Shown: positions 9,818 to 53,300 of the stretch, piece after piece
Numbering within the stretch: position 1 is the first letter of the stretch
Layout of the letters: each line of letters begins with the position of its first letter
NCBI RefSeq assembly: GCF_964204645.1
Contig: NC_134027.1
Location: 7,924,485 to 7,988,484 of the forward strand
Direction of reading: 5' to 3'
Source of the DNA: Tubulanus polymorphus
Taxonomy: Eukaryota; Nemertea; Palaeonemertea; Tubulaniformes; Tubulanidae
Length of the DNA: 64,000 nucleotides
Translations under genes and position numbers: made by a program
The notes under the pieces: model-generated
Told to the model about the DNA's origin: nothing
The model's input: only the letters and a program-made list of their open reading frames with translations
Databases searched by the model: none

Positions 9818-9880
9818 ATATTTGAGGAGCGATGTTTCGGCTAACAACTGTTGTTAGCCGAAACGGCGCTCCTCAAATAT
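9818..9880. repeat. Near-perfect ~29-bp inverted repeat
   Basis: The arms (9818-9847 and 9851-9880) read inward ATATTTGAGGAGCG then TTTCGGCTAACAA, with a 3-base loop. The motif TTAGCCGAAAC is also found in the hammerhead-like repeat at 42.3 kb, so this is probably a half element duplicated in inverted orientation. Confidence 0.85.
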
Positions 9881-19385: not shown

Positions 19386-19430
19386 GACACGACGTTTCGA
19401 ACTCTCATTAGAGATCCTCGTCAGGTGTGA
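19386..19430 (-). ncRNA. Hammerhead-ribozyme-like motif
   Basis: On the minus strand the order is ACAC (stem I, 5' side), CTGACGA, a stem-loop (ATCTC/GAGAG), GAAA, CGTC, then GTGT (stem I, 3' side). This is the order of a hammerhead: CUGANGA core, stem II, GAAA, a very short stem III, a UH cleavage site after GUC, and a closing stem I. Core bases are all present and stem I pairs 4 of 4. Stem III would be at most one or two base pairs, as reported for hammerheads of Penelope-like elements and retrozymes. Activity is inference. Confidence 0.55.
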
Positions 19431-20973
19431 CTGACCACAAATTTGAATATTGTCTTTACAAATTCAAGAAATTGTTTGAGTTTCATATGTTTGTTATATT
19501 TCACGATTGGAACGAATGAGATCGAAGTAAAAAATTGAAAGTTTTCTCGCTGTAACATACGCTTCTTTGCTACCGTCAGGTGTGACGGGTCTAAGGGACA
19601 CCAAATCAAAACAAATGAAAACAATCTACCAATAAAATAAATAACAGGGTCAATCTCTATAGATTTACGTTTTGACCGACCCTTTCAATCGCATTTTCAG
19701 TAGGAGTCATTTTCCTGAATTTGCTACCTGAAAACTCTGGGTTTATCTCAATGGCAATAACACAGAAGTGCCTGCTTGTCAAAGGACTTTAAACTATTTG
19801 GTAAAGCATAAATTTTCTCCTAAAATTCCACGAAAATCCTAAGAAATCATGTTGAATTCCTGAATTTTTAGGGGGATGGTCCCCATGTCAATAATATTAC
19901 TGTTTATTTTGAGAATCCTTACGATAATTCATTTTGTTTTTCACGAATAAGCGCAAAAAACTATAACTATTCAAGCTTGTGTTTGGGTAAACATCGGCTA
20001 ATGTTTTTCATTTTCCTTTTTTATGCACTTTCGTTATGGTTTTTCCCGCTATTCGTTGTTCCAGCGGGTCTCCCGGGTTTTCGCGGGTATTTGCCTTTAT
20101 CCTAATTGGTTTATGGGCTTAATCATTTTCATTCACATCGAATACGTAGGTCGTAAAATGCGTTCGCTAATCGCTTTCAATAGCTAATTAACCGGTATAA
20201 ACAGGTAATTGGCCAAATATGGATAAAAATGGGAATTCAATCACCCGACGACTCTATATATTACTCACGCTAGGAATTCCCGACGTATATAGCGCGTGTG
20301 TAATAACATTTTTATGTAAATACGGGGTAAAGAAAATGTTCAAAGTGTTGTTGAATGGTCTTTCCAGTTTATTGCGACAAAATCAGACCGACTTTTTAAG
20401 TCCGCGGAGTCTTTATTCGCAGTTTACGCTCGACGTTAATACACATGTATATAACAAAATAATGTAATAATCATGGTATATATGTTTATTCATAGTTCAA
20501 AGAATGTGCGCAACAGGACTTCCTGGATATTATATATATATATATATATACTAGTATAGTGATAATATGAACGTATATATACATGTCGTGGAATGAGTCA
20601 CGTCGACATTAGTTCTCGCGCGCGCCAGGTCCCATATTGTCACCGGTCTTCAGTAGTGGTGTTCGTTCTGTCAGAGCGAGACGCGCGATCGCCCTCCATT
20701 CCTATTGCGAGCGTCTCGGCCGGGTTATACATAATTTTTGGAGGAAAACCATGCGCCGCCTGGCACTGGTGATGTGGTCATGTGATTTGATAAAACCGGC
20801 ATACTGTACACTATTTCTAAGTGGGCCAGCACGAACGTAAACACTATCAGTTCAACCTGTTGATCGGTCGGATCTACGAGTAACTCGTAGGTCGGAGCTA
20901 CTACGATAGTGCGGAACATGCATGGGAATTATCGCTCCGGGAATATCTCGTAGTTTCTTTCGCGTGCTCGATT
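19431..20973. other. Upstream region of the KLF gene
   Basis: No gene recognised. A short (TA)n tract occurs at about 20530-20549. From about 20600 the sequence becomes GC- and CpG-rich, consistent with the promoter and 5'UTR of the KLF15-like gene. Confidence 0.5.
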
Positions 20974-22092
20974 ATGACATCGTCTCTCACGGCGAGACTA
21001 GTTATATCGCCGGCGACAATGCCTTCATCGTGTTCGGTGCTCTCAGCGCAGACGTGTGAGGACGCTTTTTTACCGCTCAGTTCAAGCCTCGAGCGCGAAC
21101 GATGGACGTTACAACGCCTGAACTCGTCCGCCGGCGAGGAGAGCGACGAATCCGTCGACGAAATGCGATGCAGCTCGCCGGAAAGTTGCTGGAGCATGGA
21201 CAGTTTGGACGACGAGCTATACCTCGAGTATCTGAACAACAAGGGATTTTTCGACAGCGAAACTGTGAGTACATTTTGCGAAAAAAACCAACTTGTGCCC
21301 CTTACCGTGAACCAACACGCATTGCGCGGGTCTTCGTGCGCTAACAACAATAGCAGTACTGTCGCGCAGGACACGAATCGAATTACGGCGACAACCGGTT
21401 CCGACGATATATTCAACCCGAACAAATCTGACCTGGTCGTGCTCGGGGTAGGATTGAAAAACCTAATGCAAGAGAAAAATGACGACGACGACGAAGAGGA
21501 AACCAAGACGAAACAGATCACATTTCCGTCCCGATCTCGCATAGCGACGCATTACAACACGAAAGCGCCCGGCACGTCGCATTTGTCGACGTTACTGACA
21601 CAAGGTCATGTGCCCCAGTTCCGTTCAACAGTACCGTCCGTGACGACCACGTCGTACGGTAACGGAGCGCTGACCATGACATTAACCGGCGCGTCGCGAG
21701 CCGGCGCTAATACGGGCTACCCGGTGACCAGTCTATCGGATATAGTCATGAACCCGTTTCAACAAACGATACGTATTCGCGGGCCCCGTCACAGAGCCGC
21801 CACGCCGAAAGATAAAGCCGACGACAAAATATATCACTGCACCTATCCCGGTTGTCAAAAGGTGTACAGCAAAAGTTCACATTTGAAAGCGCATCATCGC
21901 CGGCACACGGGCGAAAAACCGTTTCACTGTTCGTGGCCCGGCTGCGGATGGCGATTCTCGCGGTCTGACGAGCTCGCTCGTCACAAGCGCTCACATTCGG
22001 GTATCAAACCATACCGGTGCGAAATTTGTGATAAACGCTTCTCGCGTTCGGACCATTTATCAAAACACCATCGCGTACATCGAAAACGCTGA
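20974..22092 (+). CDS. KLF15: Krueppel-like zinc-finger transcription factor, KLF15-like
   Basis: One uninterrupted frame of 372 codons. The C-terminus has the three C2H2 fingers diagnostic of SP/KLF proteins (about residues 288-370), with spacing C-x4-C, C-x4-C and C-x2-C, each followed by x12-H-x3-H, and HTGEKPF and HSGIKPY linkers. [20 protein letters not shown] and [14 protein letters not shown] match vertebrate KLF15 more closely than KLF2/4/5. The N-terminal ~285 residues are Ser-rich with an acidic patch (DDDDEEE) and are not otherwise recognisable. KLFs bind CACCC/GC boxes in the nucleus; KLF15 regulates metabolic genes in vertebrates. A second Met lies at 21019. The CpG-rich, CGA-rich codon use resembles the CARD-LRR gene. 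Confidence 0.85.
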
Positions 22093-22850
22093 CACGCGCG
22101 TACGCGTGAATTATACTTCTCTGCATAGAAAAGTGGGTTACTTTTTTTGTTAAAAATGCTCAATCGATGATCAAAAATTATGTCGTGAGATATTTCGCTG
22201 GATCCGGGAGGCAACGGAAGATGAGAGCCGTAATACTACATTCGACGAATCATATGTTGAATGCCTGTAAACCGCAAATGTTTACTGAACTGAATCAGAT
22301 GTGATCGACTCAACTTAATAACCAGATGATCATCGTTGCCGCAGATGATTTTTTAGCTCTTCAGATCGAGTGCTAAATCCGTGTTTGAGTCGTATGACGG
22401 TGACTAAAAACCACCGGAATAATCATCAACGCAGTAATATGAATCATCAGAAATTCCGAAATACTCCCAGAACACCACAAACTGAATTGAACCATGGACT
22501 TTTTAGAGTCCATGTTTGAACTAACGGTGCTAAGACTCGAACACGAGGTTTACATATGTATATACCAAAATGTTCTTTTGCGATAATATATATTACGATG
22601 ATAAAGATGACATTATGTACACTATAATGTGTATTATATTGTATATTGTAAAATGTTTTTAAGTGAGCTTAGTTTAGATCGGGGCTATAGTCATTGGGAC
22701 TATATATCATATATATATATACTGACCATCTGGTACAAATGGTGCAAAATGTTCATATGTGTACATGTTTCTATAAACCAAGTATGATAGACCCGGAAGA
22801 ATTATCAATGAATCACTTTGTACAATAAAATCAAATGCGGTCATTACAGT
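22093..22850 (+). other. Probable 3'UTR of the KLF15-like gene
   Basis: AT-rich sequence following the stop. The first convincing poly(A) signal in a suitable context is AATAAA at 22824-22829. Confidence 0.5.
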
Positions 22851-25774
22851 AAGATAAAAACGCTCGTTTTCTTTGAGGGGTGATTCTTAAAGTTCTAATG
22901 TCACGACGGACCTCTATTAGTTCTCTTAAGTCCGAAAACTAGTTGAAATTTCTAGTCTCGAATGTATGTTAATAAATCTAATTTCGGAATGGGAGAAATG
23001 TAGGATTTGGCGATTCCCCGTGCGATTTGCTGGAGGAATATGATTCGACAATACGTACATTCCTGACATTTTATCTATGATACTTTGTATAGTAATTGAA
23101 TGTCATTCTAGGATATAGTATCTATCGTGATAAAACGAGTCTTGGGCATTTTCACAAGACAATATTTGAAGGCTAATTTAAGAATTCAACGAAGCATTAT
23201 GCTTACAACGGCCACTAAATCTGAAATTGGAAAAAACTATTCAAAACCACGGATTCAGAATCCACGCTTACAACACGAACATGGAAAAAAGTAGATTCTG
23301 TTTACATAGAAAACCATCTCTCTCTCCGCATATTAGGTCCCCACTCATTTATTTACATCGGTATGAATAATGTAGACGAAGTTCATAAATACGAAATGGC
23401 CAAATAGGTTATTGTAATTATAGTATATAATGTAATATGAGAGGATATCACAGCATGTTATACATTACACATGCGATATAAACAGATGTAACTTTCGTTT
23501 GGTCATTAAAACTTACGTTGGTACATTAATTACACACGCCCGGTGTCCTCCCATCCAACTCGATTCGACAGGTTATGATGTTGTATCGAAATATAGTGTT
23601 TTGGTAGACAAAACGAAGTTAAAGTATGTATTGAAACGACGAACGTGGAAAATTCATGAATATGTAATTTTTAACTTGATTTTTATAAATGTCCATGTAT
23701 TCACGACGACCTCGAAAATAAGATAAGTTGAAGAATAGCCCGTTTGCGGCATTTTCATAGAAAGATTGCACACGGAGAAGAAATGATTTGATGCCTGTCG
23801 ATTGGTAGAAAGTTTCCTATCTTCAAGCTACGAGCAATTATCTCAACTGAGATAATTGCTCGTAGCTTAAAGCGACAAACCACGCTATACAAGGATCTAC
23901 GCGTCACTGCGGTTTTCCTTGTCGTAAAAGGTGCGTTTTTATTAGCTCGTGTTATACATAAAATTACGAACTTACGACATGAAAGAAAATTTTTGAAAAA
24001 CAGACGAGCAGAATTTTTCGCTGATTTATGCGCAACTTGTCGTCACATTTTTACAGGCGCGGAGTGTATGCGCTGCGAAGGTAGGAAAACACTCGAATGT
24101 ATATCGGGACTATAGCTGTATACCCCGGTCAAATAACAGCGTTCCATGCAGACGACACTCAAATAATACATCGGGATTTCGCCGCAGCGCAGTTCAACGT
24201 AATGAACTAACAAGGCCTCGACAAAAAGCAAACAGTACTTCACCTATAGCCAGTGACTGTGGCGAATCTTTTTGATTCTATTGTAAATACATATCAAACC
24301 GCGTGGAATGATTTACAACGTTAGCAAATACTAAACAACTTTTTAAGAATACGAGATATAGTCAATAGAAAATTCCAGAAAAGATACGCGCGACTTCAAC
24401 ACAACTGAACGTTTTCTGTATTCGAGTAAAGTTTAATTTACGCAAAAGATATGCTTACAGATTTGCGCCAAACCGCGCATATTGTCAATATTGAAGATTA
24501 GTTATCATTAACTTCTCTTCAAAATTCAAAGTTGAAACAAGGAAATTGGCGATATGTGTTCTATCTACCGAAGCCGTGGAAAATGTCCGGGCCGATAAGA
24601 AATGACATGAACATTAGTCCGCTGTCCAAGGTACGCCACAGATTGTATCTATCTCTGAAAAAGATAAGGAGAATCCCGCAGATCAAGACGACATAAACTC
24701 GGCTGATCACCCGCTGAAGTCCACCAGTACTTCAATAATTCCATATCGAATTTAAAAAAAAATTGACAACGGAACATTTTTCGCATCTAAGATCGAGCTT
24801 TCAACACAGACGCGGATTCAGACGGTAATACCGTAGGCAGGTACTATACCGTCGCGAAAAATCAGAGCCCCAATTTTCTTTTCATCCCCAAAGTAATAAG
24901 GGCAATTTTAGTCGTCTAAATCAATCCAAAAAGTAGAAAATGGCACATTTTTACAAGACGAGGCAGATAATTTTCAACAAAAAAGGCATACCATTCTTCA
25001 AGATTTCATCTTGATTACCTGGAAACTAAATCAGTAAATTTTCTAAAAAGCACTTTGCATCAGGACTTCTATTGCTTGGAAATTGCACCAAAAGCAGTAA
25101 ATTTTCTAAATTCTCCCCTATTTTTCGTGGAGTATGCCTTTTATTGTGCTACCCTCAACAGTGGTTCCTGGATCCACCCGCTACAATGTTTATCGGCAAA
25201 TTAATTGTTTTTAAGTTAGCATTTCTACAATACTGTACGTGAAACGATATCCCGAGGCTAGGTTAAAAATATGCATCGAATATTCGAAATATTCAGCTTA
25301 GTTGAACTAACACTTCTTTGCCAAACTAGAGGTGAATTGAACTGTGTTGGGCACTTATATTCCTGGATTACATGTAAAAAATACGTAATGTATTCACCAA
25401 TTCGCCCGACATGGAAATTGGCCAAGTTCAAGAATTTTGATTTTCAGTAACGTCAATTTATGTTGTTGAAATGGAACAATCCACTCAGTCATCTTGTAGT
25501 TCGCGGAATGATGTATACGGTCGTGCTGTTAACTTTGAAGAGCTGTCGACGCAACTCAACACGACATCTTCATGTCACTGTTAACATCCCTGACCTACAT
25601 AAAATTATATCATTAAATTACGTATGATTCTTGAAAAAAAGCGATAGGGGTAAAATATATAAAATCCTTTCAATGTTCCTATCCCGTGTAGGCTTCAAGG
25701 AATCTGGGGTACGCACGGACATGTACAGGGACAAGCTTATTTTCTCACCTAGGAAAAATAACAATAACGTATAA
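22851..25774. other. Intergenic, no gene recognised
   Basis: No coding signal found. Contains the hairpin at 23825-23868. The right end is the upstream region of the LENG9-like gene. Confidence 0.5.
23825..23868. repeat. Perfect 21-bp inverted repeat with 2-base spacer
   Basis: AAGCTACGAGCAATTATCTCA-like arms (23825-23845 and 23848-23868) are exactly complementary around AC. The structure could extrude as a cruciform or form a strong RNA hairpin. There is no surrounding gene. Confidence 0.9.
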
Positions 25775-25951
25775 TGACGTCAGGGATATGTCTATAAATA
25801 ACTCAGTGATTGCGCCACGACAGGAAACCCCAAACAAGGCAGTTATAAACAAAACACGGGACCGCAACGGACATCAGATTTGTTCAAGAACCGCGTTCAG
25901 AACGCAGCTTTACCTATAACAATCTACATACGGTTTTTCATCGATACACTG
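25775..25951 (+). promoter_or_regulatory. CRE + TATA core promoter and untranslated first exon of the LENG9-like gene
   Basis: A perfect palindromic cAMP-response element TGACGTCA (25775-25782) is followed 10 bases later by TATAAATA (25793-25800), a textbook core promoter spacing. A good splice donor (CTG|gtaagt) at 25951/25952 would end a 5'UTR exon, spliced to the acceptor ttgcttgtag just before the coding start at 26375. Transcription from about 25825 is inference. Confidence 0.55.
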
Positions 25952-26374
25952 GTAAGTACAATATATACATATGCATTGTGTTTATTCATAAACGTTGAGT
26001 AGGCCCCTACCAACGCGGGTCAAAATACATTGGTAGTAGATCCTTTTTTCGCGCCTCGCTCCATTTTTCAATTTCTGTATATAAGCATTTTCCTCTGTGT
26101 TCATAAATTACGTAGAAAACGTGTTAGAGTTAAGGAATAATTGTAGATAGAAAGATTTCCGGGCAAATTGAAAAATATACGGAGGATGTCTTTCAGTCGT
26201 TTCCAAATTGAAAATAATTCAATCAGCACCCCGCAACAATGAAGAAAAATAAAGTCCGAAAATTTTTCCTCGAGCAAGTAGTTTTCCCACAACTATATCT
26301 TGGGATTCTCTTTAAATTTCTCTTTATAGTGTCTTATCAATCGAGATCCAAGTTGAGAGTTTTGCTTGTAGATT

Positions 26375-29300
26375 ATGGCAGGTTCCGGCACCGAAGCTAA
26401 CCCCGTGGTCGATAACGAAATAGATGATTTGAAACAGAAATACGGAAAGATATGTTCGGTTATCCGAAATATCGGCGACTACAAATTCATGTTGAGCGTC
26501 AAAGTCCACGTGAACGTGACTGTAAAATTCCAACTTTCAGGTAGTGTATTTTCTGATGAATAAAACATTTTCAAACTATAGGTGCGAGAACTTCCTTGTA
26601 ACGAGGTTCCACTGTATGTAAATTATGACTACTTTACAATTCAAGTCAGCTTTAGTGATTGATTTCACGAAAATTAGTTGACATACATGTCTATATACAG
26701 TAGAACCTCGTTATAACGAACTCGGATACAACGATTCATCAGATATAACAAACTATACAAAACTGTTGTCTCAAGTAGGAGAATAAAGAAGTTTCCAGTT
26801 TCTAGGCGCCATTTTGTGGCGGTCCCTCGAGGTCCCCATTGTTGCGATAATTTGCGCTCATTTTTAAAACATAAGTTTAGATTGAATATCACATAGTTCT
26901 GCAGTCCCTTGCTCGATGAACTTAATTTATACACCATTTTAAAGGAAATGAAATGCAGATATTTGTTGGCGATTCTTGGAATTTTTGAATGCAACAATTG
27001 AGAACAGTGACGATGTGAAACCAAGGACCGCATATCTTAACCGCGCGTAAAAGAAATCGCGATATTTATTGATTTTGAAATATCTAAGTATATCTTGAAG
27101 CTATATTTCCAATTTTCACAGAGGTTAAAGAGGGTTATTTGCAGTTTAAGCCTGCGTTGAATTTTGTGAATATCTTTCCTGACGACTGATCTGTACCCGC
27201 TTGAGTTTGAGATTACGCGCAAAAGGGGTCTCCCACTGCGCACCGCCATTTCACTGAACATTGAGATTTGTGAAAAGAAATCTTTAAATGCAATTTGATT
27301 TCTTCATTTTTTCCATGGGGATATTTTGAGATTATAATCCGTATCTTGTTTGTACTGCATTTTGGCGGGGGCAATTAGTTTAGCTGGTTTCGGGATCCGG
27401 TTTGTCCCGCTTTGAAGTTTGAACGGCCCAGTTGGGGAATTGTCGCCATGCAGCCCGTCCAGCCTAGCGCCGATTTTGTGTTCGGTGAAATCATTGGCCC
27501 AAAACGTTTTAGAGTCCATGGTGAAATGTGCCAGTCAATTTAAACGCTTAGGACATATTTCAACACATATCTCTCTCCGGTAATCCCTCATCCTGGGATC
27601 ATACGACGAATTTACTGAATCTCAACTTTTTTGCTGGAAAACATCGACCAGATAACCTGACTGATATAAAATATCAATATTATATTTAAAGGGGATCCTG
27701 TCCCCCATTTGATATTCTGTTTTAGGGGCTCAACGTCCAGTTGGGCTACTTAAAGCTGCGCCGCATATTCAAAAATATATAAAAACTTAGATTTTGTTCT
27801 AGTGTCCATCCATGAGTGGAACATTCTGTTGAAAAGCAAATTAGGCTCTCAACTAGGCCATCTATGCAACCAACACAGAACGTCCCCACTCTTACAAGAA
27901 ATCCTTTAATTTCCCAACGCTACAAAACTCGAATTCCTCAAAGCACTCAAAGTCCATTTTTAAACATACGAAAATAAAGGTAATATATAACCATAAGAAG
28001 CAATATTAATGATATCAAACCAGTATAAAATCTTATTTTTGCGATTTCTTTTCGTAAATCTCAATGTTCGGTGAAATGGCAGTGGGAGACCCCTTTTGCG
28101 CGTAATCTCAAACTCAAGCGGGTACAGATCAGTCTTCAGGAAAGATATTCAAAAGATTTTAAACCAGGCGTAAACTGAAAATAACCCTCTTTAACCTCTG
28201 TGAAAATTGGAAATATAGCTTCAAGATATACTTAGATATTTCAAAATTAATGAATATCGCGATTTTATTTACGCGCGGTTAAGATATGCGGTCCTTGGTT
28301 TCATATCGTTACTGTTCTCAATTGTTGCGTTCAAAAAATCCAAGAATTACCAACAAATATCTGCATTTCATTTCCTTTAAAATGGTGTATAAATTAAGTT
28401 AATCGAGCAAGGGACTGCAGAACTATGTGATATTCAATCGAAACTTATGTTTTAAAAATGAGCGCAAATTATCGCAACAATGGGGACCTCGAGGGACCGC
28501 CACAAAATGGCGCCTAGAAACTGGAAACTTCTTTATTAAATTGATTTCATACTGGATATAAGTATCAGTCATAACTAACAGATTTTCTGGTCCCGTGAAG
28601 TTCGTTGTAACGAGGTTCCACTGTATACTTATATTTTTCTCAATACAGAAAACTACCCTGAAGTAGGACCTGAAATTATCATACGAAGCGAACTACACCA
28701 ATCAGACCGAGACTCGCTGTTGGGTCTGCTGAAAAAGAAGGCGTGCGAAAACCGAGGCTCATCGATGTTAGACGGCTTGATAACGGAAGCTTTCGATTTC
28801 GTCGAAAATCACGAAAATATACCGGACTTCCCAATAGCGAGCGACGACGACAAACAGGGCCGAAAACAAACCAAGTATAAAGATAAAAAGAAACGAAATA
28901 AAAAGTCGACGAAAGACGATACGACAGCCGAAAAGAAACCTCCGATGAAAACGGCAACCGACGTCATATCGAGGATCCTCTGGGATGAAAATCTGCCGAC
29001 AGATGAATTCACGGTCGGCTACATCGATCGATTTGTCGGCTTGGTGGAGAAACCGTTCTCGGCTTTCTCCTGGGAGGACATCGCGTCGGTCGACTATACC
29101 GTACTGGCGATTCCGAAGCATCGAATCGAGTATTTCAAATATAAGAACTTGAAGGTATGGGACAAGAACAGTCGCATGGACAACGTGTTCGGATCGACGG
29201 GCAGCGGCAAAACCATCGCGGGCGTCATCGAAAAATATGAGCAGCAACTAGCGGAGAAAATGTGTCTAACCGAACAGTCTACGGATCTCGATCTAGGAAA

Positions 29301-30054
29301 CGTATCAGTGGATGATGATAGTGATGATGACGATGATGATATAACGATAAACATCGGAACAAATTCCGTTTATCCCGGCCAACATGAAGAATACATAGAC
29401 GAAGAATTAGACGCGAATGGCGAGGAGAGTCAGTACAATCCGTACTGGCCGGATAAACTCCGTCCTAATCATTTCATAGCAATTCGCATAACGAACGAGG
29501 AAGTGTGCCAAACCGTCCAGCACATCCAGGATGTCATCACCGAAAAGGAGGATAGATACGGGCCGTGTTGCGTTCCCGAGCCGGCTCTACACGTGACGCT
29601 GTGTACGCTCGGTTTGGACACGAGCGAGCAACTGTCGAACGCGATAAAATGCCTTAAAGACAACGAGGACGAATTGGTGAAAATTGCGCAAAAGAAAATC
29701 AAACTAACAATCGACGGCGTGTCGAATTTCTACAATCGCGTGTTGTACGCCCGAGTTCAACACGGGAACGATCTTACGGAATTGTACGAATATCTGAAAC
29801 TGATTTTAAGATCGGCCGGACTCGACATCCGCGACAATCACGACTTCGTTCCTCACGTCACCATCATGAAAGTCACCCGCCCGGTTGGCAAAGCATTAGG
29901 CAACAGGATCAGTCCGTTCGTCTACGAAGGTTGCGAAACGACGTATCTCGGCGAGCAGATAGTCGATGGAATTCACCTCTGCTCGATGTCAAACGAAAGA
30001 AGATCGGACGGGTTTTATTTGACTCCCGCCAGTGTGGAATTCAAGTTACCGTAA
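26375..30054 (+). CDS. LENG9: RWD - MJ1316/DUF504 - 2H phosphoesterase protein, LENG9-like
   Basis: Two coding exons, 26375-26540 and 28649-30054, join in frame (phase 1) to give 523 residues. Residues ~15-115 form an RWD-type fold (KFQLSENYPEVGPEIIIRS, then SLLGLLKKKA, GSSMLDGLI). After a Lys-rich linker, residues ~155-240 match the MJ1316 RNA cyclic-group-end recognition domain (DUF504: DVISRILWDENLP, VGYIDRFVG, RIEYFKYKNLKVWD, VFGS). The C-terminal ~200 residues are a 2H phosphoesterase/AKAP7-type domain with the two catalytic HxT motifs HVTLCTL and HVTIMKV. Human LENG9 has the MJ1316 and 2H domains. The family is thought to act on cyclic phosphate RNA ends, but the substrate is unknown. 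An acidic Asp run separates the last two domains. A foldback transposon fills the intron. Confidence 0.85.
26591..26614. repeat. Solo terminal repeat of a pogo/Tigger-like element
   Basis: TTGTAACGAGGTTCCACTG followed by TA matches the right terminus of the element at 26698-28623. It lies only about 85 bases from that element's left end. It is probably a decayed older copy. Confidence 0.65.
26698..28623. mobile_element. 1.9-kb non-autonomous foldback transposon (pogo/Tigger-like termini)
   Basis: The element starts CAGTAGAACCTCGTTATAACG and ends with the near inverse CGTTGTAACGAGGTTCCACTG, flanked on both sides by TA, the target duplication of the Tc1/mariner/pogo superfamily. The terminal inverted repeats are very long: about 26698-27295 pairs with about 28040-28623, with small indels and many substitutions. 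The unique centre (about 27296-28039) has no transposase; a 71-residue minus frame at 27304-27519 is unrecognised. It occupies the single coding intron of the LENG9-like gene. Confidence 0.8.
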
Positions 30055-30184
30055 CATCCATCCCTACTTGCAGAATCAATCAACTTTTTCGGCGAGAAGA
30101 TTTTGTATTCATATGATTTATATTCGAATCAAAGTGGAAGAATTGTAAATGTTTTCATATGACTACTAAAATTTGAATGCTTTA

Positions 30185-30560
30185 CAGTAAACCTTGCCTT
30201 ATTTGGACATGCCCATTTGGACTTACATAAACGCGGACAAAAATAAAATCATTTTTCGGACTTCCGAACATATATTCTTATCCTTGAATGGGACTTTTGG
30301 CTTCTCAGACCGATTTTTCTGGTCCCAGCTTGTCCGTGTGTTCGGCGACTTTATACTTTACATGGGATTTATACATTCTTCGAGGACCCTTTCACACACG
30401 ATTCCCACTGTTTACGCGTCATATCTAGACAGTGTTATCTCGATCTATAACCCTGGATCGGTTATTCTTAGCAAATCGGCGGTACTTATGATGTCAACCC
30501 AATTTCTTGTTAAATTAAATCTCCGCTATCTGATAGCAATAAATCTAAATACCGCGATAG
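30185..30560 (+). mobile_element. Degenerate DNA-transposon fragment
   Basis: Starts TA-CAGTAAACCTTGCC followed by repeated 'GGACA'-type motifs (TTTGGACATGCCC, AACGCGGACAAA, GCTTGTCCGTGTGTTCGGC), a style typical of pogo/Tigger termini in invertebrates. No right terminus or transposase was identified and the end is approximate. Confidence 0.4.
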
Positions 30561-30626
30561 ATATCCGTCCTTTTAACACTTACACACATTCTCCCATGAA
30601 TAAATTATTTAGTATGAATGGTCAAT

Positions 30627-30664
30627 GCATGCTTTTTAGGTATTTGCATGCTTTTTAGGTATTT
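30627..30664. repeat. 19-bp tandem duplication
   Basis: GCATGCTTTTTAGGTATTT occurs twice in direct succession. Confidence 0.9.
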
Positions 30665-42197: not shown

Positions 42198-42390
42198 GCG
42201 AGAAATCCCACAATAAATACAGCTTAAACCAGAAACTTGAATAGAAGAGTATATATTTGGCTTGCGCAACGTTTCGGCTAAAGACTATTAGCCATCATCA
42301 GTACGCCTGATGATGGCTAATAGTGTTTAGCCGAAACGTTGCGCATTCAAGTTTCTCGTCTTGGCTGTATTTATTGTGGGATTTCTCACG
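42198..42390. repeat. Large inverted repeat built from two hammerhead-like copies
   Basis: Arms of about 85-105 bp (left from 42198, right to 42390) share CGNGAGAAATCCCACAATAA, ATACAGC, GAAACTTGAAT and GCGCAACGTTTCGGCTAAA. They meet head to head at CATCATCAGTACGCCTGATGATG near 42303. The left arm has ~20 extra bases. Confidence 0.85.
42301..42345 (+). ncRNA. Hammerhead-ribozyme-like motif
   Basis: Plus strand: ACGC, CTGATGA (42307-42313), stem II GGCTAA/TTAGCC, GAAA (42333-42336), CGTT, GCGCA. The core is complete; the innermost three stem I pairs form between CGC and GCG across the predicted GUU cleavage site. Stem III is nearly absent, as in minimal hammerheads of retroelements. The reverse-complement copy to the left keeps the core but has lost stem I pairing. 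Confidence 0.55.
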
Positions 42391-43361
42391 TTTATTCATC
42401 ATACGCGGATATTGTTTTTCTTCTCGGCTCAATAATTGCGGTGAATCAAGATAACTGATTACTGTTTTCGTTCACCAGGGGGCGTTGAATATGGAAATTT
42501 TTAGATTGTCAAGCATGTCACCAAATGTGCATGGAATCACTGGACCCAGTTATCGGTACTTTTCCTCTTCTTAATAGTGACCATTTCGATGAATTGTTCT
42601 CCGTATAGTGTAAATTTGTAATGTTCCATGTATAGTGTAAATAGATTAATTTTAGATATATGACCCTCCCTGTTCTGCTGTCAACTTGGTTAACCGCTTG
42701 TATCGGGTCTATTTTACGTAACAGGGATGTTTTCGGAATACCTTCCATTTCCATAATTCGCAAAAAAGGTAATCCAGATAATTCACTGACCCGACAGAGA
42801 GTTTTCTGTGTAATGATTAATTATCTGTAAAATTCTTTCATTCAGAAATAAAATGTTGTTTGTTGGGAAATCAAATTGTTCTATAATGCCCAAATGGAGC
42901 ATTTGAAATAAAACGAAATCTGCTTAACATATATATTTGTGTTTGTTTTATTCGTATTTTACATTGGAGATTTTAAAATCTAGTCTGAATTTAACCGAGT
43001 CTGGATACCGAAAAGAAAATTCCCAGGATTCAGTATTCGCGATAACGTTTGGAAATACACATAGTAGGAATAAACATGCACAACGAGGAACCAATCTAAA
43101 TACATGTATGGAGTTGGTATCAAGTAGTGAAATTTATTGAATATATATTCTAGATTACATCAAAGCGGAAGAGAGTAAAAAATGAAATACGTATATTTGC
43201 ATACAGTAAATCAACGAGTCTCTGTAACACATTGCTTTGCTTAGCGTAAGAAGGTTAATGGTATGCAGAGTGAAATAAACGAAAAACAAAAGCGTTTGAA
43301 TGCGAATGAATTTGCTGTCTAAAACCCATTTCGTCCAGGATTAGTCTAGTTAATGACCAAT

Positions 43362-44594
43362 CTATCCTCTCCAAGTCGGATAAAGACACCTTCTGTATTG
43401 CCTATAGTGCATGTACTTCACCAAACACGTCACACGTTTCCATATTGGGTATTTGGGACATCTTGGATACCAGATCCTTCTCGGATAATATCTGCGCCTG
43501 GTACGTCTAATTATCCTTCGTCTAAATCTTCTGAATACCCTTCTTTTTCTTCTAAATATCCTTCGTCTAAATCTTCTAAATATCCTTCTCCTTCGTCTAA
43601 ATCTCCTGAAAATTCGTCCCCTTCTGATGGATCTGAATAATTTTTTGCCACCTCGTCGAATCAGTCCACCCAACAAGCGACGTCCTAAACCTCCCAGTAA
43701 ACCACCAATAACTAGGAAACGGAACAACAAAAAATATCATCAAAATTTCTTGGATTTTGATTCAAAGTGGATAAGATAATGCTCATCAATTTGATCCAGC
43801 TTTCACTTACATCTTTTCTTTCTTTCCTCCTCATTTTCATCGAGATCACTTGATTTCTTCATCAGAGCCCCACCACCAGTTGCCTTCCCTTTCCGTCCAT
43901 TGCCAGAGGATTTCGCCTTTTTCGAAACGCCTGTGGAACATCCGTGAAATATTACATGTGATAGTGAGGGATGTATATTTGCAGATTAATACTTAGGCTA
44001 TGGTGGACAAATTTGAATTATTAGAGTTGTGATTATAATTGCTACAAAATTACGAAACTATAGTGGCGATGATTAGGGAAGTATCCATTTTTTTTCATCC
44101 TCCACAAGAACAAATCCTAGCGCGCAAAAAGAAATTTCCCGAATCAGCCACCATAGGAATAACATTCATAATTTTGGATACATATTTAATTAATGAACTA
44201 GAAAATCGACAATGCGTACTGTCTTTTTCCGTACTGCAAGTCCTTTCGCATACGCCTTTGCTTCTGAAGTTGTTATCGTTTCCCCCACAACCGCTGTATG
44301 AGAATTTTACGCAACTGCTTTCAGATGACTTGTAATACCAGCGGACAAGGTCATCGCCACAGGAACCCTCTTTTTTGGGAAGCGAACATACATCATTGCC
44401 GGTGACTGGCATCGACCATACAAAAATAAAAATACGCCTTGTTTAATATTATCACATAATAGAAACTTTCAAAAGGATATGTGAATATTCAAACTAATCA
44501 AATTCTCACCTGCAGTTGTAGAGTCGACTAGAACTAGTGACAGCGCCAGTGCAGCTCCACAGAGGTGCAATAATACGCGTCTCGTTTGTTCCAT
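43362..44594 (-). CDS. Secreted Kunitz/BPTI protein with arginine-rich repetitive tail
   Basis: Four exons, 44510-44594, 44235-44405, 43811-43930 and 43362-43711, join phase-consistently (all phase 1) to 241 residues. Exon 1 is a signal peptide (LLHLCGAALALSLVLVDS). Exon 2 is a full Kunitz domain with exact BPTI cysteine spacing (x8, x15, x7, x12, x3) and the WYY and FSYSGCGG signatures. The P1 residue after the second Cys is Gly, not Lys/Arg, so classical trypsin inhibition is unlikely. Exon 3 is a Gly/Lys/Ser-rich linker with an acidic end. Exon 4 begins with a Gly/Leu stretch (IGGLLGGLGRRLLGGLI) followed by repeated IFRRFRRR-type units, then a Tyr/Arg/Cys C-terminus. Basic tails on Kunitz proteins such as TFPI bind heparin or membranes. 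Antimicrobial, matrix or heparin binding are inferences. Confidence 0.82.
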
Positions 44595-46463
44595 GATCTT
44601 TTATTTCAACCTCTGCCGAATATCTGTTGAGCCGCATCGAATATATAAGTTGGTCTGTACCAATAAAACCAACGTGGGACAGGGTTACTTAGTAATTTAG
44701 CATTCATAAAATAGGATAATACAAATAAAAATTCTTTAATTATTACGATAACATACATACCAATTATATTATTTCAATGACACCCATGAATAACTCTTTG
44801 CAATATTCTACGGCCTGGACAATAGTTATCGGTAGTTAGTTTTAAGTGGATTATAGGCTCGGGCGTCAAATTCACAATACTCCACTAAGTTTAAGTCGGA
44901 ATTTAGTAGTTTACGGCGATAAGCATCTTGTCCTCCTAGAAGCAGCTGTTCGATTGAACTAAGCAGACAAATTAATGGTTTGGCAAAGATGAAGTATTGT
45001 GGCGTTTATAACTCCTTTCTTTCTGTTTGGAAACTGCTACCATGCAAAGTTCTACTTACTCCGACTGGATCTTAATTTTACCACTATTTTTGTTCAGTGG
45101 ATACCGCCAATGAAAGGCGTTTCAACTCGTAGCTTAATGGATATTTAGAATTGTAAATCACGAATGATCCGCGGAAAAACATTGTGTAACCTAATCGAAT
45201 TCGTTTCTTTCTTTTTAAATTCTTTTCCGTAGAATTCATTCGGCTTTTTATATCATGCAGAATAATCTGCTGAATTCGCCCGGTTTACGGCAAATCTTGT
45301 TGTCATTTCTTATTGCAGATCTGTATTCAGCGGGTTTGACTTTATAGAAAACGGTTTTACATAAAGCATAGCGACAGCCTTCTGATACGCTGCACTTCAG
45401 TTCATATCGTCGTCGTCGTCGTCTCGTTGTCGTCTGTTATTACTTTTTTCATTGTAGTATCGTATAAATATTGGTCATTTGAACATGTTCCCCTCCAAGC
45501 TGATCGGTTCGCGATTCTCGTATTGAATTAATACGCCCAGGTACCGATACGATCCTGTGATGTTGGTAGATATTGCTTGCTACTGCCGGCCGTAGAAATC
45601 CAATATAGATACTGATCAAGTATTCTCACCATGCATCGACGTCAGATCGCCTGAAGCCTATCCAAACAATCGAATACTCTTGTCTTATGGTGACAAAACG
45701 GATAAGTTTCCCAGCTCCTATCAATCCGGACAAGATGATCATCCAAGCCGACATAGCTCGCGCAATGGGTGAAATTGCTCGCTACCTGGCTGCTGGGCGA
45801 ATAGTCTTTCACTTTATTTTTTCACAATTTAACAAGCTCCACTGCGGGCATTACAACGTTGGGACCATTTTATGGGAATTTCTATCTAGCAAATCTCTCA
45901 AGTTCAGTGCTATTTGCCGAGTGAAACGAACGAATCGACGGCAGTTTTGTCGACACTTACTGTTTAAAACGGAGACTGGTCATACTTCGTGACCTGAACC
46001 CACAGACTTATATCTAAATATGTACATCTAGACTGTGGACCTGGAGGCAGGGATAGTTTGTTCGCATTACAAAAAAAATTGTCTTTTGATCTTTGATGTC
46101 GACTATCAAAAAACTATCGCACAAATATCATTTTCCACGAAAGCATTTTCACGTAAATAATCTACATGTAGAACGTACATATATACCTCAACGACTCGAC
46201 CACTGTTTAGTATATTTAATTCAAACTCAAATGGAACATTGTATGATCCTTTTGCTGAAAGAAGATTTTCCTTCTTTCTAGTTACTTTGACATGTTTCAA
46301 CAATGATTTGTGAATATCTTCTCTCTATTCAAATTATTGGTACACTTATCACAGTTCACTTGTTTTTTATGTCATATTTTTTCAATTTGAATACGTGTTC
46401 GGATCATTCGTTTCATGACATTTTCATGTACTATTCTTCACAATCATTGCAATTCTCTACTTA

Positions 46464-46488
46464 ATAAACTTTGAATTGAATTCGATAT
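46464..46488 (+). repeat. Retroelement 3' tail (TTGAA-type)
   Basis: AATAAACTTTGAATTGAAT resembles the terminus at 10242 on the opposite strand, consistent with one dispersed LINE/SINE family. The body upstream is not clearly delimited. Confidence 0.4.
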
Positions 46489-46786
46489 ATGTTTTGAAAT
46501 GAGTTTCTTCCAAGCGCCTATATTCAATCATTTATATATCGGAAATATGTCATTGACTGGACCGACCGGTTAATCATCCGTTAAACATGCGTCTGTGTGT
46601 CATAGATTATCTGATGACGAGAACGACTCATCTTTGACATCGGGTTCGCGCACACAACTCCCAATAACGGGTGATTGTAAGTTTTAGGAGTTGCGCGAAG
46701 GTTTATCTCGTCACCATCCGCGGGTAATCGCCGCGTTTCAGATCGCCCTCGTGGTCTCTTCGCGTATCGGTAATTCGTCTGCTCAG

Positions 46787-46945
46787 ATGTCAGCGTCGTA
46801 CACGGATCACCGGAACTTCGTGAGAAAAGAGCTGCGTACGAAGAACAACGAAGTACAGGAAGCCTTTAATGAGTTTCGCCGAAAATCAAACGAAGCGCTT
46901 TTTGATCTTCGTGATCTTACCGTGATGAACTTCATTTCAAAATAA
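46787..46945 (+). CDS. Possible small coiled-coil protein (unsupported)
   Basis: A 52-codon frame starts directly after an acceptor-like gctcag and encodes a charged, helix-prone peptide (VRKELRTKNNEVQEAFNEFR). The region is CpG-rich like exons of this genome. A second frame after an acceptor at 46958 (AFANVLKIMITMDGKDITVG, stop near 47046) could be a further exon if ACC|gtgatg at about 46920 is used. I do not recognise a family, and a decayed retrocopy is equally possible. Confidence 0.3.
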   Translation: MSASYTDHRNFVRKELRTKNNEVQEAFNEFRRKSNEALFDLRDLTVMNFISK

Positions 46946-47358
46946 AAACAATTGCAGGCATTTGCAAATGTTTTGAAAATCATGATCACCATGGATGGAA
47001 AGGATATTACTGTCGGTGGCACAAGAAGAAGTCAAAATCATTGTTGATACTTCCCGCCTACAAAAGCCGAAGAAAAAATAACTATATTTCATGCCGATAC
47101 TTTAGTTGTGTATACCGCTATTTAAAAATGTTTGGCGGTGTGACCTTAATTATATAGACTTAACGGCCGAATGTTCGAATTGTTTTACAAGACGGTCATA
47201 AACCATCGGGCAAGAAAAATACTTCAACCCTCGCCGCAATACGTTGGATAAAGTACAACTAATCTATCGAGTGTTTATAGCGGATAATTCGTTGGAATAG
47301 GTGCTGCTTATTTATTTCTTCGATAGCGATAATACACCCGAAGTTACTTTTGATCGGG

Positions 47359-50300
47359 ATGGCGTTGACCGGTCGTGCGGAATTGAATATTCTTACGGGT
47401 TCTAACGGCTTGTCCAATATGTCGCGAGCTACGACCGACCTATCGCCTACTAGTGATGGTTTGAACGACGGAGAACGACCCCCAGTCAGCGCCGAAATGG
47501 TTCTCGTAGCAAATGGAAAAACGACTGTTTTTACTAATCCAACGTCGGTAACTGAGCCGTTCATAATTGAGGAAGATTTGGATATTGAACAAATTCCCGA
47601 ACGAGAAACGTGGGATAAAAAATGTGACTTTCTTTTGTCTATTGTTGGATTTGCGGTTGATCTTGCGAATGTGTGGCGGTTTCCATACCTATGTTACAAA
47701 AATGGAGGAGGTGAGTTCGCAGGTCAATCAGTTGATTCTAAGGGCGGGGAGATGAAATGAATACAAATAGATAAATGAAGTTACAGTGGAAAATTTATTA
47801 AAAACGAAGGTTATCGATAAAATGAGATTATATGGTGATTTTAACGGGCAACTAACAGGTTTTGAATCTCTTGAAAAGGAATCAAGAATAGAGCGTATAC
47901 TTGTGCGCGGTATTTTGAACTAGAAGCACTTCGAAGAAATGTCTATGATGACCTGGTAAATGGGCCATATAAAACTTCAATGAATGGAAATTGACTCATT
48001 TTCATTGCTAGTTGGCACCTTGACGGTTTTATGGGGACAAACGTTTCAGATGTATACAATGAATCAAAATGCTATTTTTAATGAAAATTAACATTCGTTG
48101 AACACATTAGAAAGCATTTCAGTGTGGGAAGATTTACAGTCTCTGTTGTGGTATAGCTGCAGTGGTATTTATTACACACAAATTCGTTAAAAATATTCCC
48201 TCGAACCGGATTTGAACCAGTGACCTAAGGATGACAATACTATAACGTCTCTACAGTCCTCCGCTCTACCAACTGAGCTATCTAGGGATCCGTACGTCGC
48301 ACATTTTACGATAAAATAGTTCATCGGGTGGAGATCTATCTATATTAATTGATTAGAAATCGATTGAATTTTAACACCTGTTCCTACTGAACTGAACTAC
48401 ACATGCTTTACGTATCATATTTGTTCAAGAAGGAACAACTACACTGAATGTGCAGTAATCGCTTTAAAAACAACAACTCTTTTCAAGTAATTTGGAACTG
48501 AAACATTTCATTCTGCGCAAATATACCCAGACAAAATTGACTTATAATTGGCGTATACTGCACGTATACGTCTATATTCGGTTATAAGACGAGTAAATGA
48601 GTCTGAATTGTTCGCAAGCTCCGTTTGCGTGCAATAATTACGATATCTAAACTACCGTCTGATTTATATCCTCATTCTGAAATAAGAAAGTTACAGTATG
48701 TATGATGTAACGACAACGTGTTTGTAAAAAGGAACTACGTCATCAACTACGCGCACTTTGGTCGTCTGAGACCACACACATTCAAAAAGCCGCGAACTGA
48801 TGATATAACGGCGGTCACAGATACAAACAGGGTTTAGACTAGATGTTTGAAAACCCTGAATGAAACACTTATGTTGCACAAAAGGGATGTTATCTAACAT
48901 CTTAGTTATCTTGGTCATTTGAATCTGTGTGAATAAGTCTTATTTCAACAAATTTTCCAGTTCTTTTACGTATAGATCATTCTAACATGACAACTCCAAG
49001 ATTAAAAAAAGTTAAAATCTTGAAAATCGATTATTCAAAATATTTGATAAAAAGTTAGACGTGTACCCTGTAGAGCTAGTATTATTCCGAACATGGTTTC
49101 TTTGGAGGTGCAAGAGACCCTCCCTGTTCAAAGGTTAGGTCCATAGAGTTCACGGATGTGGCGCTAAATTTGGATGTATTATAATTATCACCAACAAGGT
49201 CTCAACTATCTTGTAAACAAGCGTTTTCGAGTCCATGATGTAAGTGGCGCACTCATGACACGTAGCCTTTAATACTAAGTCTCCAAAGTCTCCGTCACGT
49301 CGATGCACTGATAACAGTGATCATCGCACACTCTCGCGCTGCCACCTTCTTCCCGCGTGGACAAATCGCCGTATCCATCCTCCAATATTCACACTTCCCG
49401 AAATCATTGGCTAATCAGCCGGTGTGCGTCGAGTATTTGTCATCAGCAAACAGATCCATGTTCGGTAAGCAAATATGCCTAACAGTTACGGCGACATCAA
49501 TCGTTATAACGTGTCTGGAAATTACAAACATTCCCTCCCAGATAGACTTACTTCGCGCAGAGATTTCTTCGAATCGGTTTCCGAAATGTATAATCCCTCC
49601 CTCTCTAACCGGTTACATGAAAGCATATCTTTTGTTCCAAATACCTATCGTCAATCCCGAAGGTCAATCTTATTCGAAGATACGCGTGATGGTAGTCGGA
49701 AGCTTTTGACCGTCTTGACAAATATTTGATATTTGGCGAAATCAAATTGTAACGTAAAAAATTCCCCCAATCGCATGGAGTCAACTTCTTCTTCAATTTG
49801 AAAAATATATCCGCTTGACGAACTTTAGAATAGTGCCAGGGTCTCTTTGCGAATGATTTGGCAAATCGAAAGATCGTTTAGTTCAACACAAGAAACCTAT
49901 GTGTGTATGTGAACATCATCAGACGATAGCAAATGTTTGAATTAGTAAAATTCCGATCTTGTTATCGAGAACAATTGTCTTATTAAGTTCAATTCTCTGA
50001 TGACGAATAGTTGCGTATTCCTGCAGGGCTAGCAGGCTAATCAATCGTTTCAGTAAGAGTTAATAGAGTGTATCGACTGAAGAATACCAAATCACACATT
50101 CGACGGGAACCTCACTTCTCACTAGAAGAGTATACATGCATCCACCAGAAACTGATACCAGACACGTGATTCTTTTTGATATTTGGATCATTGAAACTTT
50201 GGCGGAGATTTCTCTGATGAATACTTTGCTCAATCTGTTGCCACATAAGGCGGCTTACCCTAAAACATTCTGCGTTTTTTCCAAGACGTCAAATAATCAT

Positions 50301-53300
50301 ACTCAAATTTCTTCATATTATTTGGATCATCTGATTATTGACGCTACCATTGGTGTAAAAGAGTACTTACTATATGAATAATTCTCAACGAGATCTTATT
50401 CTCTAAACGAAATTTTCATAACTTCATAGATTTCTTATTGCAGGTGCATTTTTAGTTCCCTATTTCTGTATGCTGCTATTCGGAGCTTTGCCGTTATTCT
50501 ATCTGGAGTTGGTATTGGGCCAGTATCACAGACAGGGTGCGGTGGCTGTGTGGGCACGAATGTCACCACTTTTCAAAGGTGAATTGATTCAAACTCTTCC
50601 TGCAAAAAAGTTATCTTATTCTGATGCTTATTGTGATACTGATATTGTGACAAAATTCCATTTTCAGGAGTTGGATATTCGATGTGCCTTATGGCGTTTT
50701 ACGTGTCGATATACTACAATGTTATAATAGGCTGGTCATTTTTCTACCTATTCCACTCATTTCGTGCTTCGTTGCCGTGGACGTCTTGTGATAACGAATG
50801 GAATACGGACAGGTGCCGCACCTCGTGGGCCACGGGCACCGGTAATGGTTCGTACGCGCCCGGCGGCGGGGACAAGACATCGATAAGTAACACGTCTTCG
50901 TCGCAACTGCCTGCACTGAATCTCACGGGTAACGCGACAGGTGTTTCGGCTGCTGCAGAATTCTTCGAGTAAGTTACAAAAATCCATATCTCGGAGTCGG
51001 TGGTATACTCTGACCAATGTGTATACCGATTCAAAAACCGAATAATACTTTTTCTTTTTTTCCGTTTGAAAGAAGATACGTTTTAGGGGTGCATAGAAGC
51101 GAAGGTATACACGATCTTGGCGCTCCCAAGTGGCAGCTTGTTCTTTGTACGATGCTTGTGTTTTTTATACTGTACTTTAGTTTATGGAAAGGCGTCAAAA
51201 GCTCTGGCAAAGTAAGTTTGCAATATTAAGTTTCTATATTGTATGGTAGTAAAGTGCGATATATAACCGTCGTTTTTTTGGTGAATATCTATAGGTTGTT
51301 TGGGTGACGGCGACCCTTCCATATATCGTACTATCAGTTTTACTAATCAGGGGTTGCCTCCTACCCGGGGCTGGGGACGGAGTGCGGTATTTCATAACTC
51401 CAAAAATCAGCAAACTTGGCGAATTAGAGGTAGGTTTTGTGTTCACCGGGAATCCATCAATGGTTCATTACTTGCTTTGCTTTCTATTTCTATACGCTCT
51501 GTCATCAGGTCTGGGTGGATGCAGCAGTGCAGATATTTTACTCCGTCGGTGCAGGGTTTGGGGTGCATATCGCATATGCCAGTTACAATAAACTTAACAA
51601 TAACTGTTATAGGTATGAAATTGCAAATAGCAAAAGTTCCGTTGATTATTTGTAGAAAATCCTGTATGAATTGCTAAATATCTTTTTCTCTCTCTTGTCA
51701 GGGATTGTCTGATTACGGCTTGCGTGAACAGTTTCACTAGCGTGTTTTCGGGGTTTGTTATATTCTGCTATCTTGGATACATGTCTAAGATGTACGGTGC
51801 ACCGATTGACAGCGTGGCCAAAGAAGGTGCGATCGAAAGAAATTTCTTGAAATAAGAAATCACTAGAATACATATTTGATATGGTTTCGTATTGGTAATT
51901 TTTTTGAACAGGTCCTGGTTTGGTATTTGTGGTCTATCCAGAAGCTATTGCCACTCTACCCGGTTCAACAGCTTGGGCAGTCATATTCTTTCTGATGCTG
52001 ATATCATTAGGATTGGACAGTGCGGTAAGTGTGTTAATTTTCGGACGCGCACTTTGGATTTTCGTAAACAATTCGAAATGTATCGCTTATTTCAGATGGG
52101 TGGCATGGAATCGATATTGACGGGTTTGAAGGACGACCATGCAAAATTATTCGCGAAATACAAATACAGCCGTGAGGTTTTCCTAGCCTGTATAATAATG
52201 TTTTCCTTCCTACTTTCCATCATGAACGTCACTGAGGTAAGCTTCCACCTGAAGATGGCTGATAGTCAACAGCAGAAATGTCGTGGTTTCGCTTCAATGA
52301 CTTTTTTCGTATAAAATTCTTGTGGAACTTGCTTAATTCATAATCCAGCATCTCGTTAATATCTGTCCCTCCCTGACATAAATTTCTTTTCTCGAATTTC
52401 TTAATCATAACAGGGTGGGATTTTCATCTTCACTATGCTGGATTCGTTCGGCGCCGGAACATCTATAATATTTACCGTATTAATCCAAGCGATAGGCGTA
52501 GCTTGGTTTTATGGTAAGTTTTATCTTTATCAGACTCCCATCGGTGACGTACGATACATGCGGTCCAGCCCGGATATGTTTCCGTTGCTTATTTTAGGCA
52601 TGGATCAGTTTAGTTCAGATATTCAACACATGCTCGGTTTTAAACCGGGTTTGTACTGGAGAATTTGCTGGAAATTCATAACGCCAATATTTCTATCTGT
52701 AAGTGTATATTCTTATTTTTTTCAAGCTATTCCGACATCATCATGTATGAATTATTTGTGGAAAATTCAACGCAAAATTGAGTCTCGATTCATTAAACTG
52801 AATTGATTTCAGGTTATATTTGTGTTTAGTATTATGACGCATCCGGGCCTCATGTACGCCTTGACAACTCACACGTACTATTTCCCGCGCTGGGCAAACA
52901 TGATCGGCTGGATGATAGCGGCCTCGGCCATGCTGACTATTCCCGGAGTCGGCATCTATAAAATGATACGCCTACCAGGCACATTTTCGAGGGTAAGGGG
53001 ATATCGGTTTGCAAATGGGGGAGTTCTCAAATTTAGCCGATTTTGGAACCTCAAACAATTTCATCGATATGATGATTTGAAAAATACACTGTATATCCAC
53101 TTACGTGTTTAGTCTAATGAATACATTTTCCAGCGTTTTGCTTTGTGTATTTCACCAAAATGGGAGCATAAAGCTATCAAACGCGGCTCTGATGTCAAGA
53201 GATACAGGGTAAGCAACGTTTGCGATCAATTTTAATGAATTCAAGTTCATCAGCGAGAAGAAATGTATCATTATCGCGTTTTGTAATCATCATTTTCAGA

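Follow-up and report, generated by a model that had tools for sequence, protein, structure and literature searches.

The window analysed here, a 64,000-nt stretch of the genome of the nemertean Tubulanus polymorphus (G000:C3:7924485-7988484; positions given below are counted within it), contains hammerhead-ribozyme-like motifs at three loci. Judged from the sequences, these motifs are, with a probability of nearly nine in ten, minimal type I hammerheads of the pseudo-long terminal repeats (pseudo-LTRs) of Penelope-like elements (PLEs), left by 5′-truncated insertions of three subfamilies. A sequence-based note (the original prediction) had placed them at 19386-19430 on the minus strand and at 42301-42345 and 52245-52286 on the plus strand; coordinates, strands, and order of the parts were all borne out. 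At each locus, a 5′ stem I strand is followed by CUGANGA, stem II, GAAA, a C-G or U-G step, U-H, and the 3′ strand of stem I. The conserved core (CUGANGA...GAAA...UH) is thus present at all three, and stem III stays within 0-2 bp.

Four subfamilies were distinguished by eye among the copies of the genome: A (stem I CCAC/GUGG), B (CGC/GCG, with a variant B2), C (ACAC/GUGU), and D (UUC/GAA). Locus 1 (core at 19391..19424, minus strand) belongs to C, has the stem I pairing ACAC/GUGU, and carries a G after A9, as opposed to the U found in the other aligned copies of this subfamily. Locus 2 (core at 42307..42340, plus strand) belongs to B and consists of CUGAUGA, an extra U, a 6-bp stem II, and GAAACGUU, with stem I (CGC/GCG) directly outside the core. 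Locus 3 (core at 52249..52282, plus strand) belongs to A; its stem I is CCAC/GUGG, and stems II and III are decayed. When the whole window was searched with an expression allowing no insertion, loci 1 and 3 and no other site were matched (100 first-order Markov shuffles: mean 0.05 sites, maximum 1). Locus 2 was missed because of the one extra residue (U) between A9 and stem II. Beside this residue, two features went beyond the original prediction, namely, an inverted partner of the hammerhead at locus 2 and a pair at 9618-9756.

The genome (267.8 Mb, 77 contigs) contained 643 matches to the strict pattern CTGANGANGGC-N(3-30)-GCCGAAACGT, 322 forward and 321 reverse, whereas the reversed pattern had none on either strand; positions were listed for 100 of the 643. 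DNA searches of the genome, with 40 candidates scored per query, yielded at least 53 matches for the locus 2 query and at least 43 for that of locus 1. A covariance model was built from 43 copies of the same genome, the window copies being excluded, and recognized five sites in the window: the core of locus 2 (42297-42350; 73.6 bits, E 6.7e-19), a fourth core of subfamily A at 9675..9708 on the minus strand with GAAG in place of GAAA (9665-9718; 54.1 bits, E 3e-13), a second core at locus 2 (42268..42301, minus strand) oriented head-to-head with the first (42258-42314; 49.1 bits, E 8.7e-12), and those of locus 1 (19381-19434; 49.0 bits, E 9e-12) and locus 3 (52239-52292; 43.1 bits, E 4.6e-10). 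The next match had an E-value of 0.26. The model match of the inverted core at locus 2 includes a 3-nt insertion; on its 5′ side this core runs into the neighbouring arm, and its stem I does not pair in the normal register. Stems as short as these, together with the lack of matches to Rfam hammerhead models, might suggest that the motifs are short words with accidental complementarity. Set against the 643 matches versus 0 for the reversed pattern, the E-values of the model, and the covariation described below, this explanation is refuted, and we assign it practically no weight.

For the covariation analysis, 116 sites of one length gave a gap-free alignment of 75 distinct 54-mers, in which the column after A9 is U in at least 90% of the copies. 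Standard pairs filled 90.6% of the paired cells compared with 72.1% in shuffles, and the covariation score of 0.508 (shuffles, 0.187) was reached by none of 500 shuffles. When the partner was shifted by one to three columns, the paired share dropped to 20-44%. Stem I was paired in 78.7% and showed changes on both sides in three of its four pairs; the corresponding values for stem II were 95.3% and five of six. Stem III was paired in all 75 copies, but the search expression had fixed GAAA.GT and left only C or U free, as it had also imposed the core of the genome copies. In the aligned sequences, stems I and II hence change in compensation across copies of the four subfamilies. This alignment of 75 genome copies, a kind of check that had been suggested originally, supports the proposed hammerhead-like structure whose stem I varies in a compensatory manner. 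As claimed, the stem I pairings of the three loci differ; they do so because each locus belongs to another subfamily, so that the differences are common to many copies and do not constitute three independent events. With few subfamilies, the number of independent covariation events is small.

Several observations weigh against reading the motifs as hammerheads. The Rfam scan of the window, which the original prediction had put forward as a check, returned no hammerhead at the gathering score, only a transfer RNA, and none was among the 25 Rfam matches in the window at E-values up to 10. Two further covariation counts were uninformative, as the number of pairs with changes on both sides (8) equalled that in shuffles (8.0) and the number of pair types (21) did not exceed theirs (22.5). 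Furthermore, many A and B copies had been found with a pattern that already specified the GGC/GCC base of stem II; stem I was not preselected. Folded in isolation, the RNA of locus 2 adopts no hammerhead but a CAUCAG/CUGAUG hairpin (z −1.6), that of locus 1 pairs part of the core with the 3′ strand (z −0.7), and that of locus 3, the only one of the three to show both stems I and II, is no more stable than its shuffles (z 0.2); none of the three folds exceeds the expected stability convincingly. The Rfam model RF00008 (Hammerhead_3) had no match in the whole genome, nor in any of 14 control genomes, which renders its silence uninformative. The hammerhead copies are putative ribozymes. The copies in the window look dead. 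The plus-strand RNA of locus 2 folds into one long hairpin (−136.1 kcal/mol versus −54.3 in shuffles, z −19) that pairs the hammerhead with its inverted copy, which makes cleavage of a transcript at this locus unlikely; according to the fold computed for the plus strand, and by extension from the palindrome for the minus strand, a transcript should hide the ribozyme core within this hairpin. A match to mir-633 at locus 2 (36.6 bits; gathering score, 90) reflects the long palindrome and was dropped.

The hammerheads were connected to PLEs via coding copies elsewhere in the genome. At C1:15222900-15229200 (L114), tandem PLE units are spaced by 2,857 bp, with two 300-nt blocks being 100% identical. 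One unit contains a stop-to-stop frame of 817 aa in which RVT_1 (E 4e-12) and GIY-YIG (E 5.5e-6) domains reside in one open reading frame (ORF); the frame of the neighbouring unit comprises only 544 aa. A subfamily B hammerhead, differing from that of locus 2 in one loop base, precedes the 817-aa frame by 48 nt and recurs behind it. By their domain content, elements of this type are endonuclease-containing PLEs as described in PMC11167929 and in the accessible part of PMC3846280. The genome contains at least 150 GIY-YIG matches (306 candidates, 150 of them scored). When the L114 frame was used as a tblastn query, 27 of 90 hammerhead loci were matched. In 15 of these, the match extended past the first 29 residues, including copies of subfamily A (L035, L051, and L052; 55-61% identity) and C (L094 and L113; 52-58% identity). 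The other 12 matched only the first 21-29 residues, which correspond to translated tail and are no evidence of coding. The hammerheads are consequently of the minimal, Penelope-associated kind that had been suspected, with those of subfamily B carried by coding units and copies of A and C near coding matches.

No PLE coding sequence was found in the window by tblastn with the PLE ORF (best E 3.6), in agreement with the original statement that a reverse transcriptase (RT) is lacking there. The proposal drawn from it, that the motifs are non-autonomous passengers, is not supported, as an RT/GIY-YIG frame lies between subfamily B hammerheads elsewhere. A pseudo-LTR position beside the PLE ORF was found for copies elsewhere in the genome, those in the window being truncated, and tandem or inverted pseudo-LTRs, an optional tail, and target duplications all occur among the PLE copies of this genome. 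Non-autonomous retrozyme-like or satellite hammerhead repeats, moved in trans, could account for the short window copies and the missing RT match, and a subfamily D hammerhead array with 69-bp spacing is present in the same genome (L065). However, coding PLE units include both the hammerhead and the tail, the arms of locus 2 align to such a unit as far as its two tail ends, and subfamilies A, B, and C are not non-coding, ORF-less retrozyme units. For these three subfamilies, this alternative is largely refuted, and we deem it unlikely overall. As locus 2 has both ends of a PLE insertion, the window copies rather look like 5′-truncated insertions of autonomous elements. The subfamily D array itself (L065/L077; G000:C2:31380380-31381404) comprises ten hammerheads matched by the search expression, several of them at 69-bp spacing, and is a hammerhead satellite invaded by a subfamily B twin.

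At locus 2, the two PLE arms point away from each other and end differently. The left arm (42200..42301, minus strand; positions 301-400 of the B reference, 90%, E 2e-34) has a short 3′ tail, whereas the right arm (42298..42431, plus strand; 292-442, 78%, E 3e-33) has a long one. Outward from the hammerhead, short arms generally end a few bases past GTGGGATTTCT, and long arms end about 30-42 nt beyond the short end, after a small hairpin such as TACAC..GTGTA. A tail counted as long if it contained ACACGGAT or TACACGGAT, the words of the hairpin, with at most one mismatch; in subfamily B, the long end was limited by the end of the reference, and its boundary was taken from the flanking sequences. 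The tail hairpins of the four subfamilies, folded singly, are weak (z −1.3, −1.7, −0.1, and −0.7).

Head-to-head arrangement is the rule among close neighbours. Of the hammerhead sites listed (100), ten pairs of neighbours lay no more than 200 bp apart, every one of them divergent; within 5 kb, 13 were divergent, 2 convergent, and 2 on the same strand. The 150 scored GIY-YIG places included 34 pairs of neighbours no more than 6 kb apart, of which 22 were divergent, 1 was convergent, and 11 lay on the same strand; 8 of these 11 were spaced 2,846-2,862 bp apart. An inverted arm was detected at no fewer than 14 of the first 30 listed sites (26 insertions when close twins are merged). In a first tally of 29 divergent arm pairs, 26 combined a short with a long tail, 2 were short-short, and 1 was long-long. 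A second tally, in which the motif was relaxed, matches were filtered by context, and further loci were included, gave 28 pairs (26 opposite, 1 short-short, and 1 long-long). Five pairs of the first tally were missing from the second and four were new in it, so that the union, assembled by hand, amounts to 33 pairs, 30 of them opposite, 2 short-short, and 1 long-long. In the two short-short pairs, the distances from the motif to the flanking repeats are 27 and 5 nt in one and 40 and 2 nt in the other; these unequal distances indicate that one arm of each pair is longer and its hairpin changed. The long-long pair sits within the complex tandem locus L114. Rows of the subfamily B2 reference, which contained its own inverted arm, were unused.

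A shared flanking word of at least 11 nt was found for 19 of the 28 pairs of the second tally; when flanks were mismatched, such a word occurred in 1 of 756 combinations. A tandem array gave rise to one of the 19 (C2:31380690), which is a false call. In the remaining 18, the words measure 11-17 nt, and 17 of these pairs have opposite tails, the other being the short-short case with distances of 40 and 2 nt. These data bear on how the pairs arise. Self-priming, either by fold-back copying of the complementary DNA (cDNA) or by an antisense transcript priming itself (the model for rotifer PLEs in the accessible part of PMC3846280, where self-priming from junction palindromes is proposed), would agree with the near-perfect palindromic arms of several pairs. 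Yet, fold-back copying predicts like tails, and 30 of the 33 pairs differ in theirs, so the opposite-tail rule speaks against its simple form, as do arm lengths that are often unequal within a pair. The words resembling target duplications beside 18 of 28 pairs argue against self-priming, which we consider doubtful, albeit a more serious contender than the other alternatives. That the two arms derive from two different RNAs was also considered: deletions confined to one arm at locus 2 and at C4:3379752 were sought genome-wide with at most one mismatch; each occurs once, and such single-copy deletions look private and are uninformative in this regard.

The positions at which arms begin were informative as well. 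After arms touching the ends of loci had been dropped, 34 of 112 arms (8 of 39 in A and 26 of 73 in B) started within reference positions 292-295. These positions, which precede C3 of the hammerhead by six to nine nt, open with the word TCATT in subfamily A and with TCAGT in subfamily B; this TCA(G/T)T word we take to fit the arthropod initiator consensus. As seeds were required to contain an intact hammerhead, shorter ones were lost, but this selection alone should not produce a peak of 5′ ends at this point. The simplest reading is that an arm reaching 292-295 represents cDNA copied to the 5′ end of the RNA. A peak beside the motif could also imply that the latter is conserved at the DNA level or as a promoter (an initiator with a downstream element) and that its RNA fold is incidental. 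Both stems change in compensation across subfamilies, however, which a DNA-protein site would not need, and we consider this explanation very improbable. No peak of arm 5′ ends was found at the hammerhead cleavage site (2 of 39 A arms start at 334 and 0 of 73 B arms at 334-336), and the arm starts consequently give no support for cleavage in vivo.

Taken as PLE insertions, the pairs suggest the following course. The initiator-like TCA(G/T)T, which precedes the hammerhead by a few nt, would serve as the transcription start, thereby placing the ribozyme at the 5′ end of the transcript or between tandem units. The PLE protein would cut both target strands in a staggered manner, and reverse transcription would be primed from both. 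One cDNA would begin at the short site and the other at the long site, the two start sites being coupled, and the cDNAs might then join by their 5′ ends to give an inverted pair with a target duplication. The basic insertion product would thus be a twin, made from coupled start sites that flank the tail hairpin, one per DNA end, which yields one short and one long tail; we regard this proposal as about evenly balanced between right and wrong. In the second tally, 9 of the 28 pairs, locus 2 among them, lack a shared word above 7 nt. Observations that count against the course outlined here are that no clear target duplication was found in the flanks of locus 2 and that 18 of 76 motif matches were unpaired in the first tally, some of them being chance matches or extra units of one locus. 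Likewise, the second tally contains 5 convergent and 6 same-strand neighbours, one of them L119 (G000:C2:10185101, 10185312), where two same-strand subfamily A arms, short then long, follow each other in direct order. The sample of pairs was also non-random; its sources were the initial 30 sites of the listing, the regions best matched by the window queries, and 16 further regions. The latter contained short-plus-long pairs in two cases, L115 (already in the second tally) and L117, and lone arms in several; at L118, a possible short arm appeared in one alignment and was unseen in another.

If the twin proposal is true, the inverted pseudo-LTR and the "optional" tail alike would follow, with cDNAs that often reach the RNA 5′ end just upstream of the hammerhead. 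Both of these features have been published before, and hammerheads are expected in a genome with PLEs; a strict pairing of one short and one long tail was not found stated in searches of openly accessible literature, in which PMC11167929 and PMC3846280 were consulted. With hundreds of copies at hand, the insertion ends show how a PLE probably inserts, and the tail rule lends itself to direct tests in vitro and in PLE-rich genomes generally.

The window contains further PLE remnants. At locus 1, a subfamily C PLE end extends over 19312..19430 on the minus strand (75.6%, E 1.6e-16; the reference is the single copy L087), and at locus 3, a subfamily A end covers 52243..52314 on the plus strand (80.6%, E 9e-14). 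The latter remnant lies in a short intron (52237-52413) of an SLC6-type transporter gene, starting 6 nt past the 5′ splice site; the borders were set by eye (exon end ...NVTE at 52236, donor at 52237, next exon GGIF at ∼52414). The fourth core belongs to a decayed head-to-head pair of subfamily A arms at 9618..9756 (9716-9618 on the minus strand, E 5e-17; 9719-9756 on the plus strand, E 3e-7). Adjoining this decayed twin, a small palindrome at 9829..9886 contains, by eye, two B2-like hammerhead 3′ halves (BLAST E 3.4) and is probably a further truncated PLE twin.

As for the surroundings, the genes of the window are animal-like and encode the SLC6-type transporter, a C2H2 zinc-finger protein, and a protein with MJ1316 and AKAP7/2H-ligase domains. 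Just before the gene for this last protein, with its AKAP7/2H RNA-ligase-like part, stands an inverted repeat (26782-28537) with 380-nt arms (26782-27161 and 28158-28537) that are 96% complementary and separated by 996 nt. Long simple repeats (short-period and TA) occupy 8187-8870 and 12426-12780, with matches of the mir-297 type below threshold.

Minimal type I hammerheads of PLEs were reportedly described by Cervera and de la Pena in 2014 and by Lunse, Weinberg and Breaker in 2017. According to the accessible parts of PMC6155905 and PMC7761336, PLEs carry minimal hammerheads without helix III that are possibly active as dimers and whose role is unknown. The copies reported here resemble those described in these parts in their core, the absent or very short stem III, the place in pseudo-LTRs, and the occurrence in tandem units; set beside them, they have one more residue behind A9, in most cases U. 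Dimers might form here by way of the self-complementary ACGU of stem III.

A close parallel is the Poseidon element PAc of Anolis carolinensis (PMC11167929), which likewise has a hammerhead at the border of pseudo-LTR and ORF and one ORF for RT and GIY-YIG. Its protein cuts and extends both DNA strands, and its tail, which has an AC-rich stem-loop, is the sequence between two RT start sites; two such sites also appear to bound the tail in T. polymorphus. The PAc hammerhead cleaved only with the protein present and was not needed for insertion in vitro, and the later steps of insertion were left for validation in that 2024 in vitro study (PMC11167929). While no difference in start sites between the strands was seen for PAc in vitro, paired arms here usually use different ones. 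Furthermore, the PAc ORF starts at stem II (PMC11167929), whereas the first Met of the long frame in L114 lies beyond the tail, and the AUG in the core opens only short frames (A, 19 codons; B, 5; C, 14; D, 5; one copy each, by eye). A role of the U after A9 in an ORF AUG, as in PAc, was considered, but here such an AUG opens these short frames only. Among sequences in IMG/VR, 23 contigs (L001-L023), several of them identical, match the hammerhead pattern; several have a longer stem III by eye, and the covariance model, run on 19 of the 23, gave a top score of 40.9 bits (L015). A U after A9 is found in 19 of the 23, which makes a structural reason for this residue no less likely than an ORF AUG.

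Penelope of the rotifer Adineta vaga, as presented in the accessible part of PMC3846280, shares the head-to-head inverted pseudo-LTRs and an optional tail of 31 bp on one of them, with target duplications of 8-10 bp. The few copies described there, attributed to antisense self-priming, contrast with the many copies and the near-strict pairing of one short and one long arm in T. polymorphus. Finally, animal non-LTR retrozymes, to the extent that PMC7761336 and PMC7229834 are accessible, also have type I hammerheads in repeats, to which the 69-bp array of subfamily D looks similar; their units measure about 150-300 bp, whereas the hammerheads of subfamilies A, B, and C belong to coding PLEs.

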